Virus record (IMG/VR): IMGVR_UViG_3300042691_018491
Coordinates: 1 to 30,752 of that record
DNA: 30,752 nucleotides
Reading direction: 5' to 3' (one strand)
From: a virus
Shown here one piece after another: positions 4,425 to 22,753 of this stretch. Numbering within the stretch: the first letter of the stretch is position 1; every line of letters starts with the position of its first letter. The notes beneath the pieces were generated by a model. That model was not told the DNA's origin. It ran no database searches and saw nothing but the letters and a program-made list of their open reading frames with translations. Made by a program: the position numbers and the translations under genes.

Positions 4425-6088
4425 TATATTAAACCGTTTATAGTTATGGAATTATTATTTGTATCGTAGGTTATCTCAGTAATTTGCACTTGACCTTGCG
4501 AAGTTGTAACATATTTGTCAATATCTAAACTTGTTAATAGGTCGCAATCGGCAGTTACCGATATTGTAACTTTGCGTGTTTTGACCGATGTTAAGCGCGG
4601 GTCATCAATGTAAAAAAGGCGTTGGTAGGCGGTGTCTATTAACTGACTTGATGTATTAGGTATTGGATTTTCATATACCCACCAAATAGTATTAAAATTA
4701 AACAAATTTGGATTACTCGCATTATTAAAAAATTTAGCACTAACTTTAAAATAATTTGGATAAGGTTCTGTATAATTACAATCAATCAATTTAGGAAAAC
4801 CTGTTATACCTTTATCCATTAAAAGCATTCCCCTTATTGATAAACTTTGATAAAATGCAGCATAAAACGGTTTATCTAATGGGCTTTTTGTTGTTCTATT
4901 GGCATCATCTAAAAATAAAGCAGATGCAAAAGTAAAGTTTTTACTAAATAATCCTGCTTGTTGTGGATTATCTGTAGGATTCCAATCTATAACTTTTTGT
5001 GTCCATTTTGGCGCTGTTTCAGTTCCACTTAAATCAATATCTTTTGGATAAATATATTCAGCATAAGCCGCAGGTGGCTTTTCAAGTGATTCATAACAAA
5101 TAGATAGCAATTGATTATCTGCTAAGTTATCAGTATTAAACCATTCTACACCTACAAAATAATCTTTTCGCTCAACTTGTAAAACTCCGTTAATTACTCT
5201 CCATTCAATATTAAATTGTTTAAATTCATCTAAGAACTGAATGCCGTTTAAATTAGGTTTATTAGTTTGATAATTTGTTATAACACCACCTACACCTTCG
5301 CTGCCTTCAGCATATCCAGCATCTAATCTAACTGTGTCATGATAATAACCACCAACATCAAATAAAGAACTTCTAAAACCTAAGCCACAAATACTACATA
5401 AATTTTTCATGTAACTATCTATGAAAGGCGCTTTATGAAAGTTTCTACAATCAACAATATATTTTTCTAATTCATCATAAAAATCACCCGCGTTGCCTGT
5501 TGTAATAAGATTTAAAATTGTAATTATAGTGGCAAAAGGTACAAGTATAATAAAAAATATAATGCCAATTATCATTAAAGCTTCTTGTAAAGCATGTGGT
5601 CTTAAATCATTGCAATATTGAATTTCGCCAGCTGTTCTAAATGTATCTTCACCTAATGATAAACCACTGCCATCGGCTTTATCTACCCTATCCCAAATTA
5701 AATGATTCTTTAAACACCTAATCGCTTCGGCATCTACTGAATTATCGACTACCGTTACTTGTGCCTCGCATGTCGGAAACGTACACCACCGAACTGAACC
5801 GCCTTCAATCTTTCCCGTAAATAATAAACGGTCGGTACCATCTGGATTAGTGCAGCATGTATCGTAAATCAATACTTGTATCGCTGCAATATTTGGATTA
5901 GGCGCGTTTATTATTTGCTGCCTAACATATTCGTAGGTATCACCTACAACGGTTAACTCAGGGGCAAATGAAAACGCAGAATCGCCAGCTTCATCTTTAC
6001 GGCGAAAAACAAAACTTGCCGATTCAGTACCATTGAAATTATCAAGGTCTTGCGGTATGCCATCAAAATAAATTAGTAAGCCGTTCAT
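4424..6088 (-). CDS. Tail hub/distal tail-like protein with internal hydrophobic segment
   Basis: A 554-residue protein placed after the tape measure and small lysis-like genes, where distal tail or baseplate hub proteins normally sit. The N-terminal 130 residues are beta-rich with several Cys. A strikingly hydrophobic stretch of about 27 residues lies near positions 170-197 (core IIGIIFFIILVPFATII), flanked by Asp/Glu-rich sequence. A membrane-spanning segment in a tail protein is unusual and could reflect insertion into the host envelope during DNA injection. The remainder is Tyr/Phe/Asn-rich. The central part of the gene (about 4700-5600) is A/T-rich and CpG-poor relative to both ends, suggesting mosaic exchange. 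It starts within an ATGA overlap with the upstream gene. The tail assignment rests on position and character, not on a recognised family. Confidence 0.55.
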   Translation of the reverse strand: MNGLLIYFDGIPQDLDNFNGTESASFVFRRKDEAGDSAFSFAPELTVVGDTYEYVRQQIINAPNPNIAAIQVLIYDTCCTNPDGTDRLLFTGKIEGGSVRWCTFPTCEAQVTVVDNSVDAEAIRCLKNHLIWDRVDKADGSGLSLGEDTFRTAGEIQYCNDLRPHALQEALMIIGIIFFIILVPFATIITILNLITTGNAGDFYDELEKYIVDCRNFHKAPFIDSYMKNLCSICGLGFRSSLFDVGGYYHDTVRLDAGYAEGSEGVGGVITNYQTNKPNLNGIQFLDEFKQFNIEWRVINGVLQVERKDYFVGVEWFNTDNLADNQLLSICYESLEKPPAAYAEYIYPKDIDLSGTETAPKWTQKVIDWNPTDNPQQAGLFSKNFTFASALFLDDANRTTKSPLDKPFYAAFYQSLSIRGMLLMDKGITGFPKLIDCNYTEPYPNYFKVSAKFFNNASNPNLFNFNTIWWVYENPIPNTSSQLIDTAYQRLFYIDDPRLTSVKTRKVTISVTADCDLLTSLDIDKYVTTSQGQVQITEITYDTNNNSITINGLI

Positions 6089-6543
6089 TTAAGTATAGAA
6101 TATGTTAACGCCCCCAAAGATACAGATATAAACGCGTAAGTTGTTATTTTCCACACTTTTTTCAGACGTGTTTGTTTTTTTAGTTGCTTTTCAATATCTT
6201 TAAAAATAAATATGTCGCGTTCATGGCTTTTAATTATAGCATCTTTTAATAATATCATGTCGCTTTGCATATTATATTGTACTTTCATGGCTGATATGAC
6301 CGATTCTGCATCATATAATAGACTATTGCAATCGACCGCCCTATCAACACATTCGCCATACGCAATTTTATAGGCATCTAAACTATCAAAACGCAAGGCT
6401 ATAAACTCGGCATATTCGCGGGTTATCAAATAACCGTTATTTACCTTTGTAATTTGACATGAGGCGGCCAATGAGCAAAGTGTCAGTAATGTCGCTATAA
6501 TTAACACTCGGTATTTGAATAATCTTAATTCGGTGTAAGTCAT
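6085..6543 (-). CDS. Small membrane/lipoprotein-like protein, possible outer spanin
   Basis: A 152-residue protein with an N-terminal hydrophobic segment (residues about 11-28) ending LAASCQ. This resembles a lipoprotein or signal peptidase site with C29 as candidate acylated Cys, although the -3 residue is Ala rather than the usual Leu. A charged, helical middle follows, then a second hydrophobic helix (about 130-150). The gene starts inside, and in a different frame from, the preceding coiled-coil membrane gene (107-nt overlap), as seen for overlapping Rz/Rz1 spanin pairs. Spanins fuse inner and outer membranes at lysis of Gram-negative hosts. The C-terminal membrane segment is atypical for an Rz1-type lipoprotein, so a holin-like or structural role is also possible. 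It ends in an ATGA overlap with the next tail gene. Confidence 0.5.
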   Translation of the reverse strand: MTYTELRLFKYRVLIIATLLTLCSLAASCQITKVNNGYLITREYAEFIALRFDSLDAYKIAYGECVDRAVDCNSLLYDAESVISAMKVQYNMQSDMILLKDAIIKSHERDIFIFKDIEKQLKKQTRLKKVWKITTYAFISVSLGALTYSILK

Positions 6544-6766
6544 ATCTAAACTGTTTTATTTGTTTGTCTAATGTAGTCTGCATCGTATCTATATGCGCTT
6601 GCAGGCTGTCTGATTTTGTCGCAAATTGTTGCAATATTTGCGACAAACTGTCACGGGTTCTTTGTTCGTTTTTCTGTATCTGTTTATGTAGCTTAGTGCT
6701 ATTGTCAATAGTGATGTATAGCAATGCAGATACTAATAGGATTAAAACGGCTATTAGGTATTTCAT
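6437..6766 (-). CDS. Small type-II membrane coiled-coil protein, possible inner spanin (Rz-like)
   Basis: A 109-residue protein with one N-terminal membrane helix (residues about 3-18, LIAVLILLVSALLYITI). A long polar helix rich in Gln, Lys, Ser and Asp with heptad-like spacing follows (about 25-80). This is the layout of an inner-membrane spanin: N-in anchor and periplasmic coiled coil. Its 3' third overlaps the start of the next gene in another frame, the classical arrangement for spanin pairs. The ATG forms an ATGA overlap with the 41-residue gene upstream. No sequence family was recognised, so the spanin idea rests on topology and gene overlap. A tail-associated membrane protein is an alternative. 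Confidence 0.5.
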   Translation of the reverse strand: MKYLIAVLILLVSALLYITIDNSTKLHKQIQKNEQRTRDSLSQILQQFATKSDSLQAHIDTMQTTLDKQIKQFRYDLHRIKIIQIPSVNYSDITDTLLIGRLMSNYKGK

Positions 6767-6888
6767 TTTTTAACCAAGTTTAAAGCGATGGCAACCGCTT
6801 GCTCTTGCGGTTTGCCCTCAGCTATTAAAGTTCTAATGTTTTTAGAAATACATTTGTTATCGCCGGGTAAGCATTTGATTAGTGGCAT
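6763..6888 (-). CDS. Small conserved-looking phage protein, 41 residues
   Basis: A short gene encoding 41 residues, starting MPLIKCLPGDNK and ending with the helix EGKPQEQAVAIALNLVKK. The phrase EGKPxxQAVAIAL recurs in small phage proteins as I remember them, so this is unlikely to be chance. Its stop overlaps the ATG of the next gene as ATGA, giving independent support for translation. Two Cys (C6, C13) lie in the N-terminal half; there is no membrane segment. Function is unknown. The surrounding tail/lysis operon suggests a minor morphogenesis or regulatory role. Confidence 0.7.
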   Translation of the reverse strand: MPLIKCLPGDNKCISKNIRTLIAEGKPQEQAVAIALNLVKK

Positions 6889-6933
6889 AATGTTTAAATA
6901 TTTATACAATTAGATGTTATAGTGATTAAATAA

Positions 6934-7170
6934 TTAGTAATAATGTTTTTCAGATGTATAATCTTTATATTCCATTTTATCTATCCAATTTTTAGCATCT
7001 TCTAAGGTTTTAAGCTTGCCATTATTCATATCATGGCTGACTAATTTAAAAAAGCCTAACCAATTCTTTTTATAAACATAGTAAGCACTTTTTGAATAAA
7101 ATTCTTGCTTTTTTATTAAATACTTTGAATTAGTTGGACTGCCATATATTTCACATTTAATTTTTTGCAT
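6934..7170 (-). CDS. Hypothetical 78-residue protein
   Basis: A short basic, Tyr- and Lys-rich protein (N-terminus MQKIKCEIYGS) with no recognised family, signal peptide or membrane helix. The C-terminal half (TLEDAKNWIDKM) looks like the small DUF-like proteins that pair beta strands with one helix. The gene begins 12 nt after the tape measure stop and is A/T-rich and CpG-poor, unlike the adjacent end of the tape measure gene. It may therefore be a recently inserted small gene. Coding status is supported by placement and a clean frame only. Confidence 0.5.
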   Translation of the reverse strand: MQKIKCEIYGSPTNSKYLIKKQEFYSKSAYYVYKKNWLGFFKLVSHDMNNGKLKTLEDAKNWIDKMEYKDYTSEKHYY

Positions 7171-13554: not shown

Positions 13555-15006
13555 TTACAGTTTTATATCTTGACAAAAAGTATTAAGCAAGTATCTAAGG
13601 TTATCTAATAAGTCCGCTTGGCGTTCTTCGCCTTTGCCTTTAATGATTCGGCGGCTGTTATCGGATTTGATACGTAAACAGTCCATACGCAAGCCCGGGC
13701 ATTTATCTTCATAGATTTGAAAATCGGGGCACATGCTTATAATAGTATTTGTTTGAACGTAACTTTCAGCATGCAGCGGATTCGCTTTAGGCACTACAAA
13801 AAAACGCGCTGGTAGTTGCAGTTCTTCTTGTATTATTTCGTAGTAAGTTTTAGAAACGCGCTGCCTACCATCGGACCTATCACCACTCGCATCGCCTGTA
13901 ATCAGTAGCGGAATAGTGCAGGGATAAATGGCAGTATCGGACCAGCGCCCTATTTTCTTATTTGTTTCTGAAAATACCCATTCCCTAAACGCTTGGCATG
14001 TATCATATATTGATGCTTCACCGCGTTCCTCTGAACCTATCTTAAATTCTTTAATAATATGCACACCATAGCGATAACGAGAACGTGCTGATAGGTCGGG
14101 TGATAATGTTGTTTTTTTCATCACCGCCGCGGTCATAGGTATTTTGTTAAAGTCAAAACTAACATAAATCTGTTCAGTTTCCCAGCTGATTTTTTTTGAT
14201 TGCTGAAATACTTTTTGCTGAATGCTTTTATCCTTTAGAACGTACACCCATGCTTCACCTGAATAATCAACAAATACAGATTTGTATTCCTGTTCAAACG
14301 TAAGGCGGTCAAGGTCGCGGCTGGCATCGGCTACCTCAGCTGGGTCAATTGCAGGGTTATCGGTTGTTTCCATTCGAAAGGTTATCCAACTTTCGCTGCC
14401 GTTTTCAGATTGCGGTAAATCAATATCGCCGTAACAGTTGCGTTCTACTTGCCCGGCAATAGCGCCGTTTCTACATAGTTCGTACCAATAGTTGTCTTTA
14501 CCTGCAGCGGTACCAATGAAAAACGCCTCACCTTTGAAGTCAGTCAAGGTAGGGCGGGCAACAGTTTTCCAATGATACTCTAATATATGGCTTGGTATCT
14601 TTTGCGTTTCTTCATATATAACGCGGTGATATTTTCGCCCGCGCCCTTTGTCTTTTCGCCCTTCATCGCCAATGGACCACACTTCTAAAACGCCGCCGTT
14701 TAAAAACTGAATTATCTTTGATGTTTCATCTTTATGCGATATAATGCCGCCCTCATTACTTAGCTTATAAGTATCAACTATCTTTGCCCAGGATTGCGCG
14801 AAATCTTTAAAGTCATCCACAAATATACCTACAAACTTACCTTCGAATACTGCAGGACTTATAAGCGGTAACGCAACCGATGTAATCAATTCAGTTTTGC
14901 CAAATCGCCGCGCACACACTATACAATTGAAACGGCGCTTATTGTTTAAAATGCGCTGTTGCCCTATATGCGGTCTGTATAGTGTTATATCGATATTTCG
15001 AGGCAC
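13555..15006 (-). CDS. terL: Terminase large subunit (ATPase and nuclease)
   Basis: A 483-residue DNA packaging motor. The N-terminal ATPase shows Walker A ARRFGKTE (32-39). The Walker B-like strand is RVIYEE (128-133), with Glu-Glu where Asp-Glu is usual. A coupling motif FFIGTA lies near 162. The C-terminal RNase H-like nuclease shows acidic residues in VSFDFN (D285), ITGDASG (D372) and QADLLDN (D465, D468). It cuts concatemers and pumps DNA into the prohead. The start is GTG at 15004-15006, overlapping the small subunit stop by one base (TAGTG). Order terS-terL followed by the phosphoesterase is seen here, but no portal gene follows, unlike most tailed phages. Confidence 0.93.
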   Translation of the reverse strand: MPRNIDITLYRPHIGQQRILNNKRRFNCIVCARRFGKTELITSVALPLISPAVFEGKFVGIFVDDFKDFAQSWAKIVDTYKLSNEGGIISHKDETSKIIQFLNGGVLEVWSIGDEGRKDKGRGRKYHRVIYEETQKIPSHILEYHWKTVARPTLTDFKGEAFFIGTAAGKDNYWYELCRNGAIAGQVERNCYGDIDLPQSENGSESWITFRMETTDNPAIDPAEVADASRDLDRLTFEQEYKSVFVDYSGEAWVYVLKDKSIQQKVFQQSKKISWETEQIYVSFDFNKIPMTAAVMKKTTLSPDLSARSRYRYGVHIIKEFKIGSEERGEASIYDTCQAFREWVFSETNKKIGRWSDTAIYPCTIPLLITGDASGDRSDGRQRVSKTYYEIIQEELQLPARFFVVPKANPLHAESYVQTNTIISMCPDFQIYEDKCPGLRMDCLRIKSDNSRRIIKGKGEERQADLLDNLRYLLNTFCQDIKL

Positions 15007-15425
15007 TATTTATCAGGTGGGTACTGAATGTTTATGTTAATGTTTTTATCGTCCTCGGTTGTTTCCTTATGATTTGCGTTTTTGTAACCATAATTATTAA
15101 CAAGCGAAAATATAGCAACGGCAGGATTATTCTTACCTGACAACGCACGTTCCATTGTATTAGTTAAAACTTTTGCTTTTGCCTTTTCTATTGTGTCAAA
15201 AAAAACTTCATAACCCTCTGCTTTTTCGTAGTTTAAAAGTGTTTGTCTTGTTATACCTAATACTTCGCAAATACCTTCAACTGTATAAGGCACGGGAACT
15301 GTTTTAGTAAAAGTTTCGCCATCTTTACTAATAAATTCTTCTTGATTCGAATCACAACGTCTGAAATAATAATTTATAGCAGATTGCAATTCTTCAGTTG
15401 TTTTATATTTTAAATGCCTACCCAT
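15006..15425 (-). CDS. terS: Terminase small subunit
   Basis: A 139-residue DNA-recognition subunit. It begins MGRHLKYKTTEELQSAINYY and contains a helix-turn-helix-like segment YTVEGICEVLGITRQTLLNYEK (positions about 47-68). The conserved-looking stretch NPAVAIFSLVNNYGYKN (about 100-116) matches the GxxNPTGAIFNLKNNYGWK pattern of P22 gp3-like and related small terminases. It binds the packaging start site and activates the large subunit. Coupled to terL by a one-base overlap. The repeat-rich region immediately upstream (15537-15800) could include its binding site, because pac/cos sites often lie close to this gene. Confidence 0.88.
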   Translation of the reverse strand: MGRHLKYKTTEELQSAINYYFRRCDSNQEEFISKDGETFTKTVPVPYTVEGICEVLGITRQTLLNYEKAEGYEVFFDTIEKAKAKVLTNTMERALSGKNNPAVAIFSLVNNYGYKNANHKETTEDDKNININIQYPPDK

Positions 15426-15536
15426 TTGTTTATATTTTTCGTTTTAAGAAACTTTTAATAACTTTTGATATCTATACACCACTTTAATATAAAAATGCCT
15501 TAAAAAGCCGTTTAAATACGTTTTAAGACTATATCT

Positions 15537-15800
15537 ATATTATTATTAGTATTATTATTTATATTATTATTATTATTGTTAACAGTTGTTACATTAAGTG
15601 TAACACATAACTTATTGATATACATAAGATGTTACATGTTTACACCTGTTACACTATATTCTACACACATATGTATTTTAAGTTTAACTACGCATGTGTA
15701 TGCGTATATGTGAGAAAAACCCCGTAACAGGTGTTAACAGCGTAACAAAGTTAAGAATCAATCGTTTAAGTGTTACATGCTGTGTAACGTGTGTTAACAT
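15537..15800. repeat. A/T-rich tract plus TGTTAC/GTAACA repeat cluster, candidate origin or packaging site
   Basis: The 447-bp gap 15426-15872 holds no gene. An ATT/TTA-repeat tract (15537-15578) is followed by about ten copies of TGTTACA, GTAACA or TGTTAACA up to 15799. Two share the same inverted layout with a 5-nt spacer: TGTTACA-TTAAG-TGTAACA (15587-15605) and TGTTACA-TGCTG-TGTAACG (15771-15789). Direct copies lie at 15630, 15647, 15724, 15733 and 15742, the last three about 9 nt apart. A separate perfect palindrome TACGCAT-GTGT-ATGCGTA is at 15689-15706. An A/T-rich melting zone beside iterated binding sites is typical of replication origins; a terminase site is the main alternative. Confidence 0.65.
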
Positions 15801-15807
15801 TTCAAAT

Positions 15808-15839
15808 AAAAAAACCGCTGCACTTGTTGAACAGCGGTT
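15808..15839 (-). terminator. Rho-independent terminator, minus strand
   Basis: On the minus strand an 8-bp stem AACCGCTG/CAGCGGTT (15839-15832 with 15820-15813, 11-nt loop) runs directly into seven T (15814-15808). It lies 34 nt after the stop of the degenerate HNH gene and would end the leftward recombination operon before the repeat region. Confidence 0.8.
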
Positions 15840-15872
15840 AGCGGCAAACCGCAGTTAAGGCAAAAGTAAGTA

Positions 15873-16142
15873 TTAGTTTTCAGACTTTAAAACTTTACGA
15901 TGTGAAAATTCAATATTTTCTTTTTGATAGTTCAACGGGTTGCCATCTAAAAAAGTCATAGTGTACTTTAAATCATGGTTTTTAAGCGGGAATAATACAT
16001 GATGTAATAGAACGCCAGTATTACTAATAACCCTGTTTTTTTTATAATGCCATCGGTGGTTTTGGCATTTATCATAATCAGAATCATCTAACATAATGTA
16101 GTCAGCGCAAAGGCTGCGTTTGAATATTTGAAGTAGTTTCAT
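15873..16142 (-). CDS. Degenerate HNH/AP2-like small protein
   Basis: An 89-residue protein resembling the N-terminal half of phage HNH homing endonucleases. DDSDYDKCQNHRWHYKKN corresponds to the usual leading strand pair and Trp. LLHHVLFPLKN matches the LHR-type segment, and LDGNPLNYQKENIEF matches the NGNPLDNRxxNL helix. The expected DH pair of the VDHxNG motif is replaced (TMTFLDGN), so the metal-dependent nuclease is probably inactive. It starts in an ATGA overlap with the CoiA-like gene and is followed by a strong terminator. It may be a remnant of a homing gene or a DNA-binding derivative. Confidence 0.6.
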   Translation of the reverse strand: MKLLQIFKRSLCADYIMLDDSDYDKCQNHRWHYKKNRVISNTGVLLHHVLFPLKNHDLKYTMTFLDGNPLNYQKENIEFSHRKVLKSEN

Positions 16143-16933
16143 TGGGTTGTATGAAATTGATTTATCTGTTTTGTAAGCCGTTCAATGTTTCTAATAAGTT
16201 CGCCTCCCTCGCCCTCAGTTTGTTGCAGTCTAACTTTAAATTGTCTGAGTGAATCATTGAAAGACAATCCGATATTGTGCTTGTTTCGCATTGGATATAT
16301 TTCTTTAAATAACTTTCGTGAATCTTCTTTAAGTATGTATAATAATTTTTCATCTTCTCCAATTCCATCTGTTTTTGATTTTTGGATTTCTTCTTCGAAT
16401 CCTCTAATAACTTGTCGATTTGTTTCTGTTTCAATTTTTGTATTATTAACAAATTTAAATCTTTCTGGAGCATAAGTATAAACTTTAAATATTAAATAAT
16501 CCGATTGGTGTATATCTTTTAATTTACTATAATTTATGTCATTTGTGTGTACTACTTCAATGCCGCATAAAAAATCATCATTATCATCAAAGTATGCAAC
16601 ATCAACACGCCTGTTTATATCTTCTAAAGTATGTTCATCTTTAGCGCGTTTTGCAGTAACATGCAAATCTAAGTCTTTACAATAAAATTGTTTTTCATCG
16701 CATAACTTAGCAATCAAATTTAAGTGTTCGGCTGACATACCTACTGCAACTGCATCTGATTTAGTCCTAAAATGTTTTTGCCTTTCACCATTTATTACTG
16801 GTATCATTTGTATTTTATCGCCTTTATCTGACAGTAAATAATAAAATTCATATCTATTATTTTGGTTTATGTCATTTATAAAAACATATATATTTTGCTC
16901 ATTTTTAGCATAGGCATATTTTATTTCATGCAT
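16139..16933 (-). CDS. CoiA-like/PD-(D/E)XK-type protein, tentative
   Basis: A 264-residue protein starting at the ATG 16931-16933 (MHEIKYAYAKNEQNI); the open frame extends 16 codons further but into the terminator of the upstream RNA. The segment RRVDVAYFDDNDDFLCGIEVVHTN (split as RRVDVAYF near 109 and GIEVVHTN near 125) resembles the D...ExQxT core of competence protein CoiA-like nuclease folds. The usual Lys/Gln after Glu is not conserved, so activity is uncertain. The C-terminal 80 residues are charged coiled coil (LIRNIERLTKQINQF at the end). A/T-rich relative to the annealing protein gene. It sits in the recombination operon, which fits a DNA-processing role. Confidence 0.5.
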   Translation of the reverse strand: MHEIKYAYAKNEQNIYVFINDINQNNRYEFYYLLSDKGDKIQMIPVINGERQKHFRTKSDAVAVGMSAEHLNLIAKLCDEKQFYCKDLDLHVTAKRAKDEHTLEDINRRVDVAYFDDNDDFLCGIEVVHTNDINYSKLKDIHQSDYLIFKVYTYAPERFKFVNNTKIETETNRQVIRGFEEEIQKSKTDGIGEDEKLLYILKEDSRKLFKEIYPMRNKHNIGLSFNDSLRQFKVRLQQTEGEGGELIRNIERLTKQINQFHTTQ

Positions 16934-16945
16934 TGTAAATTTTTT

Positions 16946-17039
16946 AAAAAAACTAAGCCCCGAAATCAATAGGGCAACCACGACCTATATCATTCAGGGC
17001 TTTAAATATCTTTTAGTTCTTTCTGTGGTTGCAGAACAT
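16946..17039 (-). ncRNA. Candidate small structured RNA with kissing loops
   Basis: Read on the minus strand, a short hairpin (17036-17033 with 17024-17021) presents an exactly 8-nt loop GCAACCAC (17032-17025). A second hairpin has a 10-bp helix (17002-16993 with 16964-16955, one G-U), a symmetric TGAT/TGAT internal loop and a 5-bp helix ATAGG/CCTAT. Its loop TCGTGGTTGC (16983-16974) contains the perfect 8-nt complement of loop one. Seven T (16952-16946) follow the second helix after AG. A -7 element TATATTTG (17050-17043) lies just upstream. Promoter, paired loops and terminator-like end suggest an RNA of about 90-95 nt. A leader attenuator of the next gene is the alternative. Confidence 0.6.
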
Positions 17040-17042
17040 ACG

Positions 17043-17050
17043 CAAATATA
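17043..17050 (-). promoter_or_regulatory. -7 element TATATTTG for the small RNA
   Basis: TATATTTG on the minus strand matches TAnnTTTG and lies 6 nt after the stop of the annealing protein gene. The expected -33 position (17073-17070) reads ATGA rather than TTTG, so strength is uncertain. A start near 17039 would place the small structured RNA at the 5' end of the transcript. Confidence 0.45.
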
Positions 17051-17056
17051 CCACTT

Positions 17057-17590
17057 TTATTTTTCTAATTCATCATTTAAACTTGATTTTTTCAGCAAGT
17101 CAGTATAATTCATTGAACTTTTACGGCTAACATCGCGCCCGAATATTTTACCAAACTTTTCGGCTGCATCTTTAACGGCGTATGTTTCGGCGGCGGGTGC
17201 AGCTTTTTGCACACCATCGGTTTTTACGGCATTCCAATCAGTAGCACCAGCGCCCTTATCTGTTTGTATCGGTGCAGCGCCTATGCCATCTTGCCACATT
17301 GGTTCGCCGCTTATCGGGTTATTTACATGCAGCCTTACAGTTACAACAACTGAATTAGCTACTATCTGAGTGCCGCGTATTTCTACGTTAAAGTTCCCGA
17401 AAATGCGCGTTAAAAGATATTCTATTTTCTCAATAGGTATGTATCTATAATCGCGAATCATCGGATGCTGAACTAACCACTTAGCGGGCGGGTCTTGATT
17501 CAATAATACTGTTAGCGCGTTTTGCTTTAGGCTATCTTCATTTTCTACTAATAGTTCTTGAAGTGTTGGCAGTTTTGTTAATTGTTGCAT
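17057..17590 (-). CDS. Rad52-family single-strand annealing protein
   Basis: A 177-residue protein. The core reads IEIRGTQIVANSV-like strands (NVEIRGTQIVANSVVVTVRL, about 69-88), then WQDGIGAAPIQTDKGAG (about 100-116). The helix VKTDGVQKAAPAAETYAVKDA is followed by EKFGKIFGR, matching the Rad52 pattern of a Gly-rich strand followed by AxxDGxKRAxxxFG. Phage members such as Sak pair complementary single strands during recombination. It lies immediately downstream of a RecE-like exonuclease, the standard two-component phage recombinase. The acidic C-terminus (SLNDELEK) could contact SSB, as in other annealing proteins; that is inference. Length is short for the family. Confidence 0.75.
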   Translation of the reverse strand: MQQLTKLPTLQELLVENEDSLKQNALTVLLNQDPPAKWLVQHPMIRDYRYIPIEKIEYLLTRIFGNFNVEIRGTQIVANSVVVTVRLHVNNPISGEPMWQDGIGAAPIQTDKGAGATDWNAVKTDGVQKAAPAAETYAVKDAAEKFGKIFGRDVSRKSSMNYTDLLKKSSLNDELEK

Positions 17591-17620
17591 GATTAAAGTT
17601 ATTATAAAGTGATGAATTAG

Positions 17621-18376
17621 TTATTTAGCCCATGTAGGCAATGAAATAATATGTATTTTGTTATCAGTTGTATAGCCGTGAAAATTATTTGATTCTTTGC
17701 ATTTTTTAAGTGTTTCGATATCGGCTAAATATTCTTGTCGGCCGCGTTCGATAGCATCATTATCTAATTCGTAAAGTTCTACATTAAACGGCGCTTCCTT
17801 TTCTACTGCTATAAATATAAAGCGTTCGGCCTTTGTTAGGTCCATGTAAAACGCCGCTTGGACATGATAACGGTAATTGTAGATGCTTTTAGAAAATTCG
17901 CCCGGTGCAGAACTGACCGTTGTTTTAAGGTCTATACAAACATTGTACTTAGTGTTTAGAAAATCTACTTTGCACTTTGCGTCAAGTTCTGCGATTTTTC
18001 CAAATATAGGTAGTTCCGCTTGGCCGTGTTCTAAAAGTAACGCCGCCTTCGGATGTGCTAAAACAGCGTTTCGAATGTTTAGTGCTAATTCGTAATCTTT
18101 AGCCGACACGAATAATTCTTTACCTTCAGATTCAGCTAAAAACGATTCGTAGATAGCTTTACCTTCTTTAGTACGGCGGTCGCATTCGGGCATAACGGCG
18201 TAATTGTTTTGGTCAAATACAACGCTATGAACTAATGACCCTAAATTCATGGCTGATGTTGGCGCTTGTTTTTCACCTTCTATATAGGCTTTGTAGTGCG
18301 CTGGTGACTTATGTACTAAGTCTAAAAGTGACTTGCTAATGAAGTCAGTTTTTCTGTGATACTCTTGGTTTGTCAT
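17621..18376 (-). CDS. RecE/exodeoxyribonuclease VIII-like PD-(D/E)XK nuclease
   Basis: A 251-residue exonuclease beginning MTNQEYHRKTDFISKSLL (ATG 18374-18376). A frame extending to a TTG at 18451 crosses the promoter region and was not used. Conserved elements: MNLGSLVHSVVF (GxLxH helix, H near 48), the PD-(D/E)XK core CKVDFLN and CIDLKTT, and the downstream YHVQAAFYMDL (QxxxY motif of RecB/RecE-type nucleases). It would resect double-strand ends to leave single strands for the neighbouring annealing protein. First gene of a leftward operon divergent from the HTH regulator. Family call is strong; direction of digestion cannot be read. Confidence 0.88.
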   Translation of the reverse strand: MTNQEYHRKTDFISKSLLDLVHKSPAHYKAYIEGEKQAPTSAMNLGSLVHSVVFDQNNYAVMPECDRRTKEGKAIYESFLAESEGKELFVSAKDYELALNIRNAVLAHPKAALLLEHGQAELPIFGKIAELDAKCKVDFLNTKYNVCIDLKTTVSSAPGEFSKSIYNYRYHVQAAFYMDLTKAERFIFIAVEKEAPFNVELYELDNDAIERGRQEYLADIETLKKCKESNNFHGYTTDNKIHIISLPTWAK

Positions 18377-18408
18377 AAATTTTAAAAATATTTTATTAAA
18401 TAATAGCA

Positions 18409-18435
18409 CAAATTTAAAAAAGGTTTTTAACTTTG
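18409..18435. promoter_or_regulatory. Overlapping divergent promoters
   Basis: In the 81-bp gap between exonuclease and HTH gene, TAAATTTG reads on the minus strand (18416-18409) and TAACTTTG on the plus strand (18428-18435). Both match TAnnTTTG. The expected -33 position of the plus promoter (18405-18408, AGCA) abuts the minus -7 element, so the two promoters compete for the same DNA. The HTH protein encoded next door is a natural candidate regulator. Confidence 0.6.
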
Positions 18436-20137: not shown

Positions 20138-20530
20138 ATGAAACAAATTTATCATACCCATGAATTATGGGAAGATTATAAAAATGGATTATACAAAAAA
20201 GAAATTGATAACGAAGAATTGCATATTGAAAATTGTAAAAATTTATTATCTGATAGTAAATTATTTTATGATACAATGTTTCAAATGATTAACACTTGGA
20301 AATATTGTATAGAGCATAATTTAACAAATTTAGATATAAATCCAAGGGCTTATTTGGGTGCTGCTGCATGCAATTTTAAATATAAATCTAATGAAAAATC
20401 AGTAAGAATAGCATGGAATAATTTAGATTCTGATGTTCAAAAATTAGCTAATGATAAAGCTGATGAAATTGTTAAAATATATAGAAGTAAATTTAATAAA
20501 TCAATACAATTATGCTTAGAAATTATTTAG
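20138..20530 (+). CDS. Conserved-looking partner of the IbrA/IbrB-like module
   Basis: A 130-residue, mostly helical protein. The stretch MFQMINTWKYCIEHNLTN (about 48-65) and RAYLGAAACNFKYKSNEKSVRIAWNNL (about 72-98, key features AAACN and R-AW) recall small phage proteins found near PAPS reductase-like genes, as far as I remember. It begins 3 nt after the helicase stop and overlaps the next gene by 19 nt. Strongly A/T-rich and CpG-poor compared with the helicase, like the three genes that follow. Biochemical function is unknown. Confidence 0.6.
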   Translation: MKQIYHTHELWEDYKNGLYKKEIDNEELHIENCKNLLSDSKLFYDTMFQMINTWKYCIEHNLTNLDINPRAYLGAAACNFKYKSNEKSVRIAWNNLDSDVQKLANDKADEIVKIYRSKFNKSIQLCLEII

Positions 20531-21714
20531 AAATTGATGTTTTGGAAGCTGCAAAACAAAGAATATCTTGGACATTTGATAATTTTAATAAAATTATAAT
20601 ATCATTTTCAGGTGGAAAAGATAGTACAGTTTTAACTCATTTAGTAATGGATGAAGCTATAAAAAGAAATAGAAAGGTTTGTATGTTTTTTATTGATTGG
20701 GAATGTCAATTTAAAATTACTGAAAATCATTGTTTGAATATTTATAATATGTATTCAGAATATATTGAGCCTTATTGGATATGTTTACCAATTTTAACCG
20801 ATAATGCTTGTTCTATGATTGAACCAACATGGAAGTGCTGGGATGATGATAAAAAGAATTTATGGGTTAGAGAAAAACCAAAAATAGCTATTAAGTCAAA
20901 AAGTTATTTTCCATTTTATTTTGAAAACATTACATTTGAAGAATTTACGCCTTTATTTGCAGAATGGTATAGTCAAGGTGAAAAATGTGCAAATTTCATC
21001 GGAATAAGAACTCAAGAATCTTTAAATAGATTTAGAGCCATTGCAATGGAAAAAAATAAATTTGATAATAAACAATATACCACTAATATAGTAAATAAAA
21101 ATTGGGCAGTATATCCAATATATGATTGGCGAACTGAGGATATTTGGATATACAATTCAAGATATAAAATGATTTACAATAAACTTTACGATAGAATGTA
21201 TCAAGCTGGATTAACAATAAATCAAATGCGAATAGATGAACCATTTGGTGATACAGCAAGAAGTGGTTTATGGTTGTATCAAATTATAGAACCTGAAACA
21301 TGGGCGAAAATTGTATGTAGAGTAAATGGTGCTAATACTGTTAATGAATATGGAAAACAAAAAGGTAATATTTTAGGCAATAGAACTATAAGTTTACCTA
21401 ATGGTCATACATGGGAATCATTTTCAAATCATATTATAAATACTATGCCACCTAAAACGGCAGAACATTATAAAAATAAAATTGCAAAATATTTATATTG
21501 GTATAAACAAAGAGGTTATGAAAATGGAATACATGATGAAGTTGAAATAGATATTTTTGATAAAGTTCCTTCATGGAAATTGATTTGTAAATGCTTACTT
21601 AAAAATGACTATTGGTGCAGAACATTAGGTTTTAGTATAACAAAATCATCTAATTATGAAAAATATTTAAAGTTAATGAAAAAAAATAGAGAAAAATGGA
21701 ATTTATTTTCATAG
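20512..21714 (+). CDS. IbrA-like PAPS reductase-family (ATP pyrophosphatase) protein
   Basis: A 400-residue protein with the PP-loop SFSGGKDSTVLTH (31-43), the ATP pyrophosphatase motif of PAPS reductases, DndC and tRNA thiolation enzymes. Further features are FFIDWECQF, NFIGIRTQESLNRF, YPIYDWRTEDIWIY and NQMRIDEPFGDTAR, which are typical of the DUF3440/IbrA branch. Members adenylate a substrate; for IbrA-type proteins the substrate is not known to me. It is sandwiched in a co-directional set with a GNAT protein and a ParB-like protein. A/T-rich and CpG-poor, suggesting recent transfer of the whole set. Family assignment is strong, role speculative. Confidence 0.85.
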   Translation: MLRNYLEIDVLEAAKQRISWTFDNFNKIIISFSGGKDSTVLTHLVMDEAIKRNRKVCMFFIDWECQFKITENHCLNIYNMYSEYIEPYWICLPILTDNACSMIEPTWKCWDDDKKNLWVREKPKIAIKSKSYFPFYFENITFEEFTPLFAEWYSQGEKCANFIGIRTQESLNRFRAIAMEKNKFDNKQYTTNIVNKNWAVYPIYDWRTEDIWIYNSRYKMIYNKLYDRMYQAGLTINQMRIDEPFGDTARSGLWLYQIIEPETWAKIVCRVNGANTVNEYGKQKGNILGNRTISLPNGHTWESFSNHIINTMPPKTAEHYKNKIAKYLYWYKQRGYENGIHDEVEIDIFDKVPSWKLICKCLLKNDYWCRTLGFSITKSSNYEKYLKLMKKNREKWNLFS

Positions 21715-22091
21715 AAAATTTTGAAGATGTTAAAAATCACATATCTAAATTTTCTTTAGATAAAAATGTTTTTAAAGAACTTGGAGAACCTATATTTCAT
21801 AATAATAATTCAAAATATATAATTTGTTGCATAGATAACATTTGTATTGGTTTTTTAAGCTATGAATTTAAAAAAGAAATTTGTAATTTAAAATATTGCT
21901 ACATTTATAAAGAATATCGTAATAAAGGCATTTTTAAAAAACTACATATAATTTTTGTTGATAAATTGCCTAAGTACATAAAATATATAAATGTAATATC
22001 TTCTGTTTTTGCATTGCCAATATATTTAAAATTTGGCTATATAGAAATTAAAAAATATAAAATTTGTTCACATTTAAAATTAAAATTATGA
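21696..22091 (+). CDS. GNAT-fold acyltransferase-like protein
   Basis: A 131-residue protein with a GNAT core: the beta strand IDNICIGFLSYEF, then CYIYKEYRNKGIFKKLHIIF (RNKG as the acetyl-CoA pyrophosphate loop, RxxGxG/A type), and the late strand ISSVFALPIYLKFGYIEIKKYK (LPIYLKFGY is the usual motif B ending). It overlaps IbrA-like by 19 nt and ends in an ATGA overlap with the ParB-like gene, so all are co-translated. The substrate is unknown. A GNAT enzyme between a PP-loop ATPase and a ParB-like protein resembles base-modification neighbourhoods; phage Mu Mom also has a GNAT fold. Confidence 0.7.
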   Translation: MEFIFIENFEDVKNHISKFSLDKNVFKELGEPIFHNNNSKYIICCIDNICIGFLSYEFKKEICNLKYCYIYKEYRNKGIFKKLHIIFVDKLPKYIKYINVISSVFALPIYLKFGYIEIKKYKICSHLKLKL

Positions 22092-22753
22092 CACTATTTG
22101 ATGATTTAGAATCGACCGAAAACAATGATTTGACTAATAAAATTATTGAACTTATATCTTCATTAGGAAAGGATAATATTGATAGTTTAGTCAATTCTTT
22201 AAATTCAATAAAATTAAAAATGCATGAAATATCACCCTTTAACAATGAGCCTGTTGATTGTGTAATATGGGTAAAAAATGAAAATATACATGCTAATGAT
22301 TATAACCCTAATTCTGTAGCGCCACCTGAAATGGAATTATTAGTACATTCAATAAATTCAGATGGTTATACTCAACCTATAGTTACAATGGAACATGAAA
22401 ATTTATATGAAGTTGTTGATGGATTCCATAGAAATAGAGTTGGTAAAGAAAGTGAGATTATTAAAAAAAGAATATTTGGATATTTGCCAATAGTAAAAAT
22501 TAAATCAGATAGAACTGATAAATCTGATAGAATGGCTGCAACTGTAAGACATAATAGAGCAAGGGGTAAACACAAAGTTGAATCAATGTCTGATATGGTA
22601 ATTTATCTAAAAAGAAAAAATTGGAATGATGAAAAAATAGCTAAAGAATTGGGCATGGAAGCTGATGAAGTTTTAAGACTTGCTCAAATTACTGGTCTTG
22701 CTGAAGCATTTAAAGATAATGATTTCAATAAAGCATGGGAAATAATTGAATAA
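22088..22753 (+). CDS. IbrB-like ParB/sulfiredoxin-fold protein
   Basis: A 221-residue protein starting at the ATG 22088. The ParB-type core is evident: NENIHANDYNPNSVAPPE, LLVHSINSDGYTQPIV and YEVVDGFHRNRVG (about 107-119), where GFHR is the ParB nucleotide/phosphate-handling motif. A helix-turn-helix-like region follows (NWNDEKIAKELGMEADEVLRL, near 185-205). IbrB is the usual partner of IbrA, and the pair is common in phages and prophages. DNA binding or a nucleotidyl activity is plausible, not shown. It has the same A/T-rich composition as the module and ends before a longer intergenic gap. Confidence 0.8.
   Translation: MTLFDDLESTENNDLTNKIIELISSLGKDNIDSLVNSLNSIKLKMHEISPFNNEPVDCVIWVKNENIHANDYNPNSVAPPEMELLVHSINSDGYTQPIVTMEHENLYEVVDGFHRNRVGKESEIIKKRIFGYLPIVKIKSDRTDKSDRMAATVRHNRARGKHKVESMSDMVIYLKRKNWNDEKIAKELGMEADEVLRLAQITGLAEAFKDNDFNKAWEIIE

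Follow-up and report, generated by a model that had tools for sequence, protein, structure and literature searches.

A structured phage RNA whose two hairpin loops are complementary, a candidate cis-acting leader of variable downstream genes

The window analysed here is a stretch of 30,752 nucleotides of viral DNA (IMG/VR record IMGVR_UViG_3300042691_018491, positions 1-30,752), and the element of interest occupies positions 17050-16946 of its minus strand. The site is preceded by an annealing gene, assigned by a weak Rad52 match, and by an exonuclease gene. An earlier reading made from the sequence alone had spoken of a recombination operon, and these two genes make that term a fair one for the upstream side only. 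The gene that follows the element had been called CoiA-like, which we could not support. Its 264-residue product has no Pfam, PHROG or PADLOC match, and when it and two relatives were compared as profiles with two proteins that sister phages encode at this site (one with CoiA domains according to Pfam), no similarity was detected (probability 1.4%). The features of the locus are collected in Table 1.

Table 1. Features in and around the element (window coordinates)
Feature	Position	Strand	Basis or remark
Upstream gene, Rad52/ERF-like annealing protein, 177 aa	17057..17590	-	PF04098, E=1.9e-4 (weak)
-7 promoter-like box TATATTTG, type TAnnTTTG	17043..17050	-	Sequence
Hairpin 1, 5' arm GTTCT	17033..17037	-	Covaries with AGAAC in homologues
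Kissing segment 1, GCAACCAC, 5' side of loop 1	17025..17032	-	Matches 16981-16974
Hairpin 1, 3' arm AGAAC	17016..17020	-	Script count of arms in homologues
A/U-rich linker TAAAAGATATTTA	17003..17015	-	Sequence
Hairpin 2: 10-bp outer stem, UGAU/UGAU internal loop, 5-bp inner stem, 10-nt loop	16955..17002	-	
Kissing segment 2, GTGGTTGC, 3' side of loop 2	16974..16981	-	Sequence and covariation
T run, 7 T, terminator-like	16946..16952	-	AG (2 nt) between stem and T run
Next gene, 264 aa	16139..16933	-	ORF (listed from upstream GTG); ATG 12 nt past T run

The second and larger hairpin can be read directly in the sequence as it had been described, with 10 bp and 5 bp on either side of a symmetrical TGAT/TGAT loop and seven T after it. 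From 17002 to 16955 its parts are AAGCCCTGAA, TGAT, ATAGG, TCGTGGTTGC, CCTAT, TGAT and TTCGGGGCTT. The reported 8-bp match between the two loops is also borne out, GCAACCAC being the exact reverse complement of GTGGTTGC; for loops of 12 and 10 nt with 15 possible alignments, we estimate arithmetically that an 8-mer match would arise by chance with a probability of about 2e-4. Hairpin 1 has to be redrawn. It had been given as TTCT/AGAA exposing exactly 8 nt, while the homologues back a GTTCT/AGAAC stem and a loop of 12 nt, with GCAACCAC on the 5' side followed by AGAA. Nested folding of 131 nt gave z = -3.3, with none of 200 shuffles as good, and the RNA alone (97 nt) gave z = -2.9, with 3 of 200 as good. 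The nested minimum for the window consists of a 4-bp UCUG/CAGA hairpin and pairing of the AGAAC side with the T run, so that hairpin 1 is not drawn as proposed, which is also the case for the relative L050. A terminator scan restricted to loops of at most 8 nt did not list hairpin 2 and its T run. One credible copy of the element is present in the window according to a covariance-model search and a layout scan, a further layout-scan row near 15.7 kb being judged a chance hit.

The -7 box noticed just ahead of the RNA is indeed present, as TATATTTG at 17050-17043, and conforms to TAnnTTTG, which we take to be the Bacteroidota -7 consensus. By itself the box is weak evidence. The window holds 69 copies of TAnnTTTG against 54.8 expected, a number reached by 4 of 100 shuffles, and inspection by eye of the surroundings of the TATATTTG box gave no convincing -33 element. 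Given how often the box turns up by chance, its value as evidence for a promoter depends on its constant position in relatives: TATATTTG stands at this place in 54 of 55 main-clade members, the remaining one, L083, having TATATTTT.

Those relatives were fetched with the upstream 177-aa annealing protein, taking the best 80 of 84 viral loci. A complete element lies within 200 nt downstream of the annealing gene in 55 of the 80 and is missing from 23, while two sequences end too soon to tell; of these L062 starts like the RNA and L080 does not. The covariation alignment (MAFFT) comprised 29 distinct sequences from this main clade. The loop-loop helix is paired in every one of its 232 cells, and 5 of the 8 pairs are changed on both sides. 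In hairpin 2 the outer stem is paired in 97.9% and the inner stem in 100% of cells, with both-side changes at 7 of 15 pairs. For the structure as a whole, the observed pairing, the counts of double-changed pairs and of double-changed cells, and the covariation score were never attained in 500 shuffles, and the number of pair types was attained once, although such shuffles ignore the relatedness of the sequences. Sliding the alignment by a single column lowered pairing from 99% to 43-53%. Because MAFFT puts the 3' arm of hairpin 1 in the wrong place, a script was used to tally the pairing of this arm, which gave GTTCT/AGAAC, TGATTC/GAATCA, CGTTTC/GAAACG and TGTTC/GAACA.

The loop-1 segments of the main clade are GCAACCAC, GTAACCAC, GCAGCCAC, GGCACTAC, GGCTTCAC, GGTCTCAC and GACTTCAC, of which GGCACTAC is partnered by either GTAGTGCC or GTAGTGTC. 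The only non-Watson-Crick pairs between the loops are G-U (in L043, L092 and the GTAGTGTC type). In L024 and L044 the stems of hairpin 2 are identical and the loops differ by three compensated double changes. The helix is 8 bp long with non-pairs at both ends in 28 of the 29 sequences and 9 bp in the other, a bounded length of the kind expected of a length-limited kissing helix, and its calculated duplex energy ranges from -9.1 to -14.5 kcal/mol over 16 loop types. A structured RNA with compensated loop pairing, as the sequence-only reading had proposed, is thus strongly supported, uncompensated loss of the loop match occurring in none of the 29 distinct sequences. We regard this covariation as the decisive evidence for the RNA structure. 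The letters change while the pairing is kept, and copies within one genome differ from each other (see below), so that the loop-loop helix most likely works within one molecule.

The position of the element relative to the next gene is equally constant. Of the 55 complete main-clade members, 54 have an ATG start codon 11-14 nt past the T run. The exception is again L083, a single case in which the RNA is kept, no gene follows and the box is the altered one. The genes that follow are of several kinds: N6/N4 DNA methylase-domain proteins, in many cases with a second gene after them, CoiA-domain proteins, T5orf172/MUG113 proteins and several that could not be assigned. Four loop-1 types are found with a single type of downstream gene, and many gene types with a single loop type. 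Such free combination fits a generic leader, and the downstream genes have no evident common function, which leaves no evident signal to which a leader might respond. In L025-L095 the region downstream looks like a hypervariable cargo site behind a constant leader RNA, with the cargo swapped between a DNA methylase plus variable small second genes (nuclease-like by eye), CoiA-domain genes, T5orf172 genes and small unassigned genes.

Some relatives have no RNA at this place. In 10 of the 80 the annealing gene runs straight into the next promoter-like element, which resembles window positions 15800-15885 (minus strand), where a second promoter-like box, TACTTTTG at 15868-15861, is followed by GCGGTTTGCCGC, a CCGCTG..CAGCGG hairpin and seven T. 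As all ten lack the RNA and have this element directly after the annealing gene, the RNA plus its gene looks like a cassette inserted between the two. In another 5 of the 80 a simple hairpin and T run take the place of the element, and the gene behind them has a promoter-like box to itself. This exchange is what might be expected if the element were simply a terminator shielding the operon upstream, with the next gene weakly expressed behind it and the loop match adding no more than stability. That explanation accounts neither for the promoter box in front of the element nor for loop complementarity maintained through many double changes, and we consider it very unlikely.

More distant members were sought with a covariance model that did not include the loop-loop helix (R1), run on loci derived from pattern scans. 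Beyond the main clade it matched L142, L143 and L149 and the groups of L153, L125 and L155/L139/L213. The ten divergent members checked keep an 8-9 bp match between a 5' segment and loop 2. L142, L143 and L149 have the layout seen in the window with other sequence. The L153, L125 and L155 groups lack hairpin 1, so the pairing there amounts to an ordinary pseudoknot, and an open reading frame spans the element. In these groups an ATG lies just ahead of the paired segment and the frame ends overlapping the start of a primase gene, which makes a leader peptide with translational coupling possible. We rejected a conserved peptide: by eye, residues vary where the paired segments vary, and base pairing therefore seems better conserved than the peptide. 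The patterns had required the box and GATATT, both of which are therefore partly selected for; the loop match was not required, and the L149 element is not the stretch that matched the pattern. The AAGATATT linker, common in members, was likewise partly a search criterion, and among elements found independently it is present in phage FCL-2 and absent from L149:961, L270:5241 and FCV-1. A T-rich tail follows the stem in the divergent members examined, being weaker in some (e.g. L143 and L149). When ten members were folded without pseudoknots, every fold included the outer stem of hairpin 2 and eight included hairpin 1, the z-scores spanning -1.4 to -3.9; the folds of L142 (14 of 200 shuffles as good) and L149 (19 of 200) are weak. 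Two sequences showing complementarity without the layout, L126 and L124, were dropped.

Further candidates came from a second model, R2, and from layout scans. L162 and L240 fit the layout and match R2 weakly, with E-values of 0.10 and 0.0065 in their own records and 1.1 and 0.026 in a larger search. The 51-kb contig G005 holds two clear copies and one doubtful copy ahead of different genes. The second of these, L270:5241, was found by layout scan and has loops CGATCGAA/TTCGATCG and the UGAU/UGAU internal loop; it matches R2 with E=2.1e-5 although absent from the training set of that model. The doubtful third copy (L270:9972, at 47971 of G005) has a box, a CGATATT linker, AGTCGCAA/TTGCGACT pairing around a hairpin and a separate terminator, and is drawn more simply as a long helix enclosing a hairpin. 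A possible second copy in contig G007 (L272:2139-2237) reaches E=0.03 with R2 and has a loop match of 6 bp only (CGGCCA/TGGCCG). A loose layout scan over 4.2 Mb, run without a shuffle control, returned 73 rows, many plainly chance. A narrower scan returned 7 rows, where shuffles gave 0.4. One element accounts for two of these rows and three further elements for one each, the remaining two being the doubtful G005 copy and the chance row in the window. Taking the first ATG with an open frame of at least 60 aa, 85-220 nt past the box, as the start, the 13 divergent elements (one doubtful) have a start codon 107-137 nt from the start of the -7 box. The genes concerned encode primase-polymerase, GpA-type terminase, DUF6378, NUMOD4-HNH, HTH and replication-initiation proteins. 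We also tried the idea of a packaging RNA and rejected it, its sole support being that L143 precedes a terminase gene and that the window element lies near terminase genes.

We turned to the cultured Flavobacterium phage FCL-2 on account of its terminase, which shares 39.7% identity with the L143 enzyme. The gp53-gp54 gap (L276:37475-37591) contains in order TATATTTG, a TGTAG/CTACA stem, CATCCAC/GTGGATG, AAGATATT, a T run and the ATG that starts gp54, whose product matches replication-initiation proteins in PHROG. The loop-loop match is 7 bp and the model E-value 0.0018. Its relatives FCV-1 and FCOV-F56 have a matching gap with different sequence and the same layout, namely TATGTTTG, the stem AATGTAATG/CATTACATT, GTAGAGAG/CTCTCTAC, a terminator-like hairpin, a T run and an ATG; here the matched segment is on the opposite side of each loop, and the match in FCV-1 is 8 bp. 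We also ran a scan that demanded adjacent hairpins, complementary loops, a long second stem and a T-rich tail and did not demand a promoter. In 12 stretches from 8 phages, several picked for holding a member, it gave 8 rows, 6 of them (5 distinct elements) after a TAnnTTTG box and 2 not; first-order Markov shuffles, whose promoters were unscored, gave 2.3 rows per set. This two-hairpin scan missed the elements of FCV-1 and L162. No credible element was seen in the parts fetched of Cellulophaga phage phi38:2 or of a TM7 phage. The presence of the element in a cultured phage makes a role of kissing loops in attenuation directly testable; in the excerpted text of a CRISPR study that used FCL-2, host RNA was sequenced without phage (PMC8092290).

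Since the element keeps its place between box and start codon, with 11-14 nt from T run to ATG, it is read most economically as a cis-acting leader. We lean towards the view that the element is the 5' leader RNA (~95 nt) of a phage gene, in which kissing would act on the loop of a terminator that attenuates transcription. What the sequences themselves show is the layout, covariation in the two hairpins and in the helix between their loops, and a fixed distance to the start codon; promoter use, termination and kissing in the cell are what we infer, as would be any direction of the effect and any triggering signal. Transcription would start a few bases past the TATATTTG box and hairpin 1 would be the first to fold. 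On leaving the polymerase, the loop of hairpin 2 may then pair with that of hairpin 1, giving an 8-bp kissing helix that would adjoin the inner stem of hairpin 2. Hairpin 2 and the T run would form an intrinsic terminator 12 nt ahead of the start codon, and since there is no room for a second promoter after it, the next gene would be expressed from transcripts that pass the terminator. The kissing helix could thus set the speed or completeness of terminator formation and, through it, the level of read-through into the gene. A terminator-like structure between promoter box and start codon is the layout of an attenuator, as far as layout goes. A non-systematic look revealed no conserved alternative (antiterminator) pairing.

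Attenuators controlled by antisense RNA, such as that of the pT181 type, govern plasmid rep genes. The element resembles these in having a leader terminator ahead of a replication-initiation gene (in FCL-2, L149 and, by a weak match, L162) and in a control that would operate via hairpin loops, and differs in that the loop partner lies within the same RNA. A scan for the TAnnTTTG box alone found no antisense promoter of this type on the plus strand of window positions 14786-18428. One might also suppose that the leader is a homotypic dose sensor, the terminated leader of one genome kissing the nascent leader of another and shifting the state of its terminator. We regard this as a long shot. If it were true, gene expression would follow how many related genomes a cell contains, and the compensated loop changes among phages that are otherwise very similar at this site would create compatibility groups, like those of plasmid antisense RNAs.

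The sequence-only reading had left two roles side by side, a terminator or attenuator for the next gene and an independent RNA. The first fits better, with the gene 11-14 nt past the T run in 54 of 55 cases, and the second is unlikely. A free-standing small RNA, with promoter, compact kissing fold and terminator, might act in trans on host or phage, and its kissing loop would protect the ends or present a protein-binding surface (the tandem G-A internal loop). The element does have its own promoter-like box and terminator-like end, and L083 retains the RNA without the gene. However, nearly all main-clade elements and 13 of 13 divergent ones (one doubtful) are directly ahead of a start codon, the G005 copies (two clear, one doubtful) precede different genes, and the loops are among the most variable parts.

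The put RNA of phage HK022 (putL/putR) is a cis-acting RNA of about 70 nt with two stem-loops, putL lying just past a promoter, as described in the excerpted text of PMC9378689. By analogy, the nascent element could fold, bind RNA polymerase, in the put case at the beta' zinc-binding domain, and cause later terminators to be ignored. It too lies directly downstream of a promoter-like box, is made of two stem-loops like the HK022 putRNA and is followed by genes of varied kinds. It differs in ending with its own T run, where the same excerpts give the put RNA no terminator and describe no helix between its two loops (PMC9378689), the polymerase being from another phylum; with no Rfam match at the cut-off either, put-like processive antitermination is decidedly unlikely. 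In the ToxI system, again from partial text, a folded RNA is followed by a terminator and then a gene (PMC5772629). The element shares this toxIN order, with the terminator between RNA and toxin gene (PMC5772629), and some of its downstream genes have nuclease-like domains (CoiA_nuc, T5orf172, HNH), as might a type III toxin-antitoxin-like unit built of structured RNA, leaky terminator and toxin gene. A type III antitoxin RNA would consist of tandem repeats ahead of an endoribonuclease toxin gene, whereas the element is a single RNA unit with one credible window copy and no repeat array. RNA type is also independent of gene type, one loop type preceding unrelated genes and one gene type having four loop-1 types, and other downstream genes are terminase, primase-polymerase and replication initiators. 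Because RNA and gene combine freely, we rate this explanation as extremely unlikely.

We place the element, as a real, previously unlabelled phage RNA with a presumed leader function, among the leader and attenuator RNAs. Rfam 15 gave no match at the curated cut-off in the window, nor in ten other loci, of which eight contain divergent members and two belong to the main clade, and the 11 matches to 301 bases at E up to 10 were all under the cut-off. The manA and wcaG motifs of cyanophages, from a survey of 104 motifs seen in excerpt, are, as the element would be, structured 5' UTR RNAs, some of them in phages (PMC2864571). They differ in the phages concerned and in that the element gave no match to their Rfam entries at the cut-off. 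The titles and abstract beginnings of the open-licence papers listed in literature searches contained no description of the element or of such a kissing-loop attenuator. A distant blastn search of phages with the element returned one 26-base match, and the regions of L162 and L139 returned nothing. Viral contigs scanned with a loose pattern yielded at least 119 stretches, most of which hold no member by model search. Two pattern scans of host genome contigs gave 0 and 19 stretches, all 19 judged chance, with L216, L223 and L228 among them holding complementary segments of 7-12 bases. Searching 395 Bacteroidia genomes with the model returned nothing among results in which only 10 candidates were scored per genome, an empty result that is no proof of absence. 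The element stands out as an RNA structure that has no Rfam entry and covaries unusually cleanly, the loop of its terminator-like hairpin remaining complementary to that of the upstream hairpin through changes of sequence. In viruses of Bacteroidota it recurs ahead of genes as diverse as those for replication initiation, primase, terminase, DNA methylation and nuclease-like proteins, and its loop pairs may form a natural set of orthogonal switches.

Several other features were observed. Window positions 15540-15800 (minus strand), ahead of the small terminase gene, contain many GTAACA/TGTTAC and ATA-rich repeats, also present in L083, which are possibly a binding-site array, an origin or a packaging site. 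A PAPS-reductase-like gene lies close to a ParB-like gene both in the window (20512-22753, plus strand) and in FCL-2 (5340-7009), the ParB match in the window being just under the Pfam cut-off. The TM7-assigned phage MG269973 (L266:20001-20402) encodes a protein 48.5% identical to the annealing protein of the window, compared with 29% for the versions in Cellulophaga phages.
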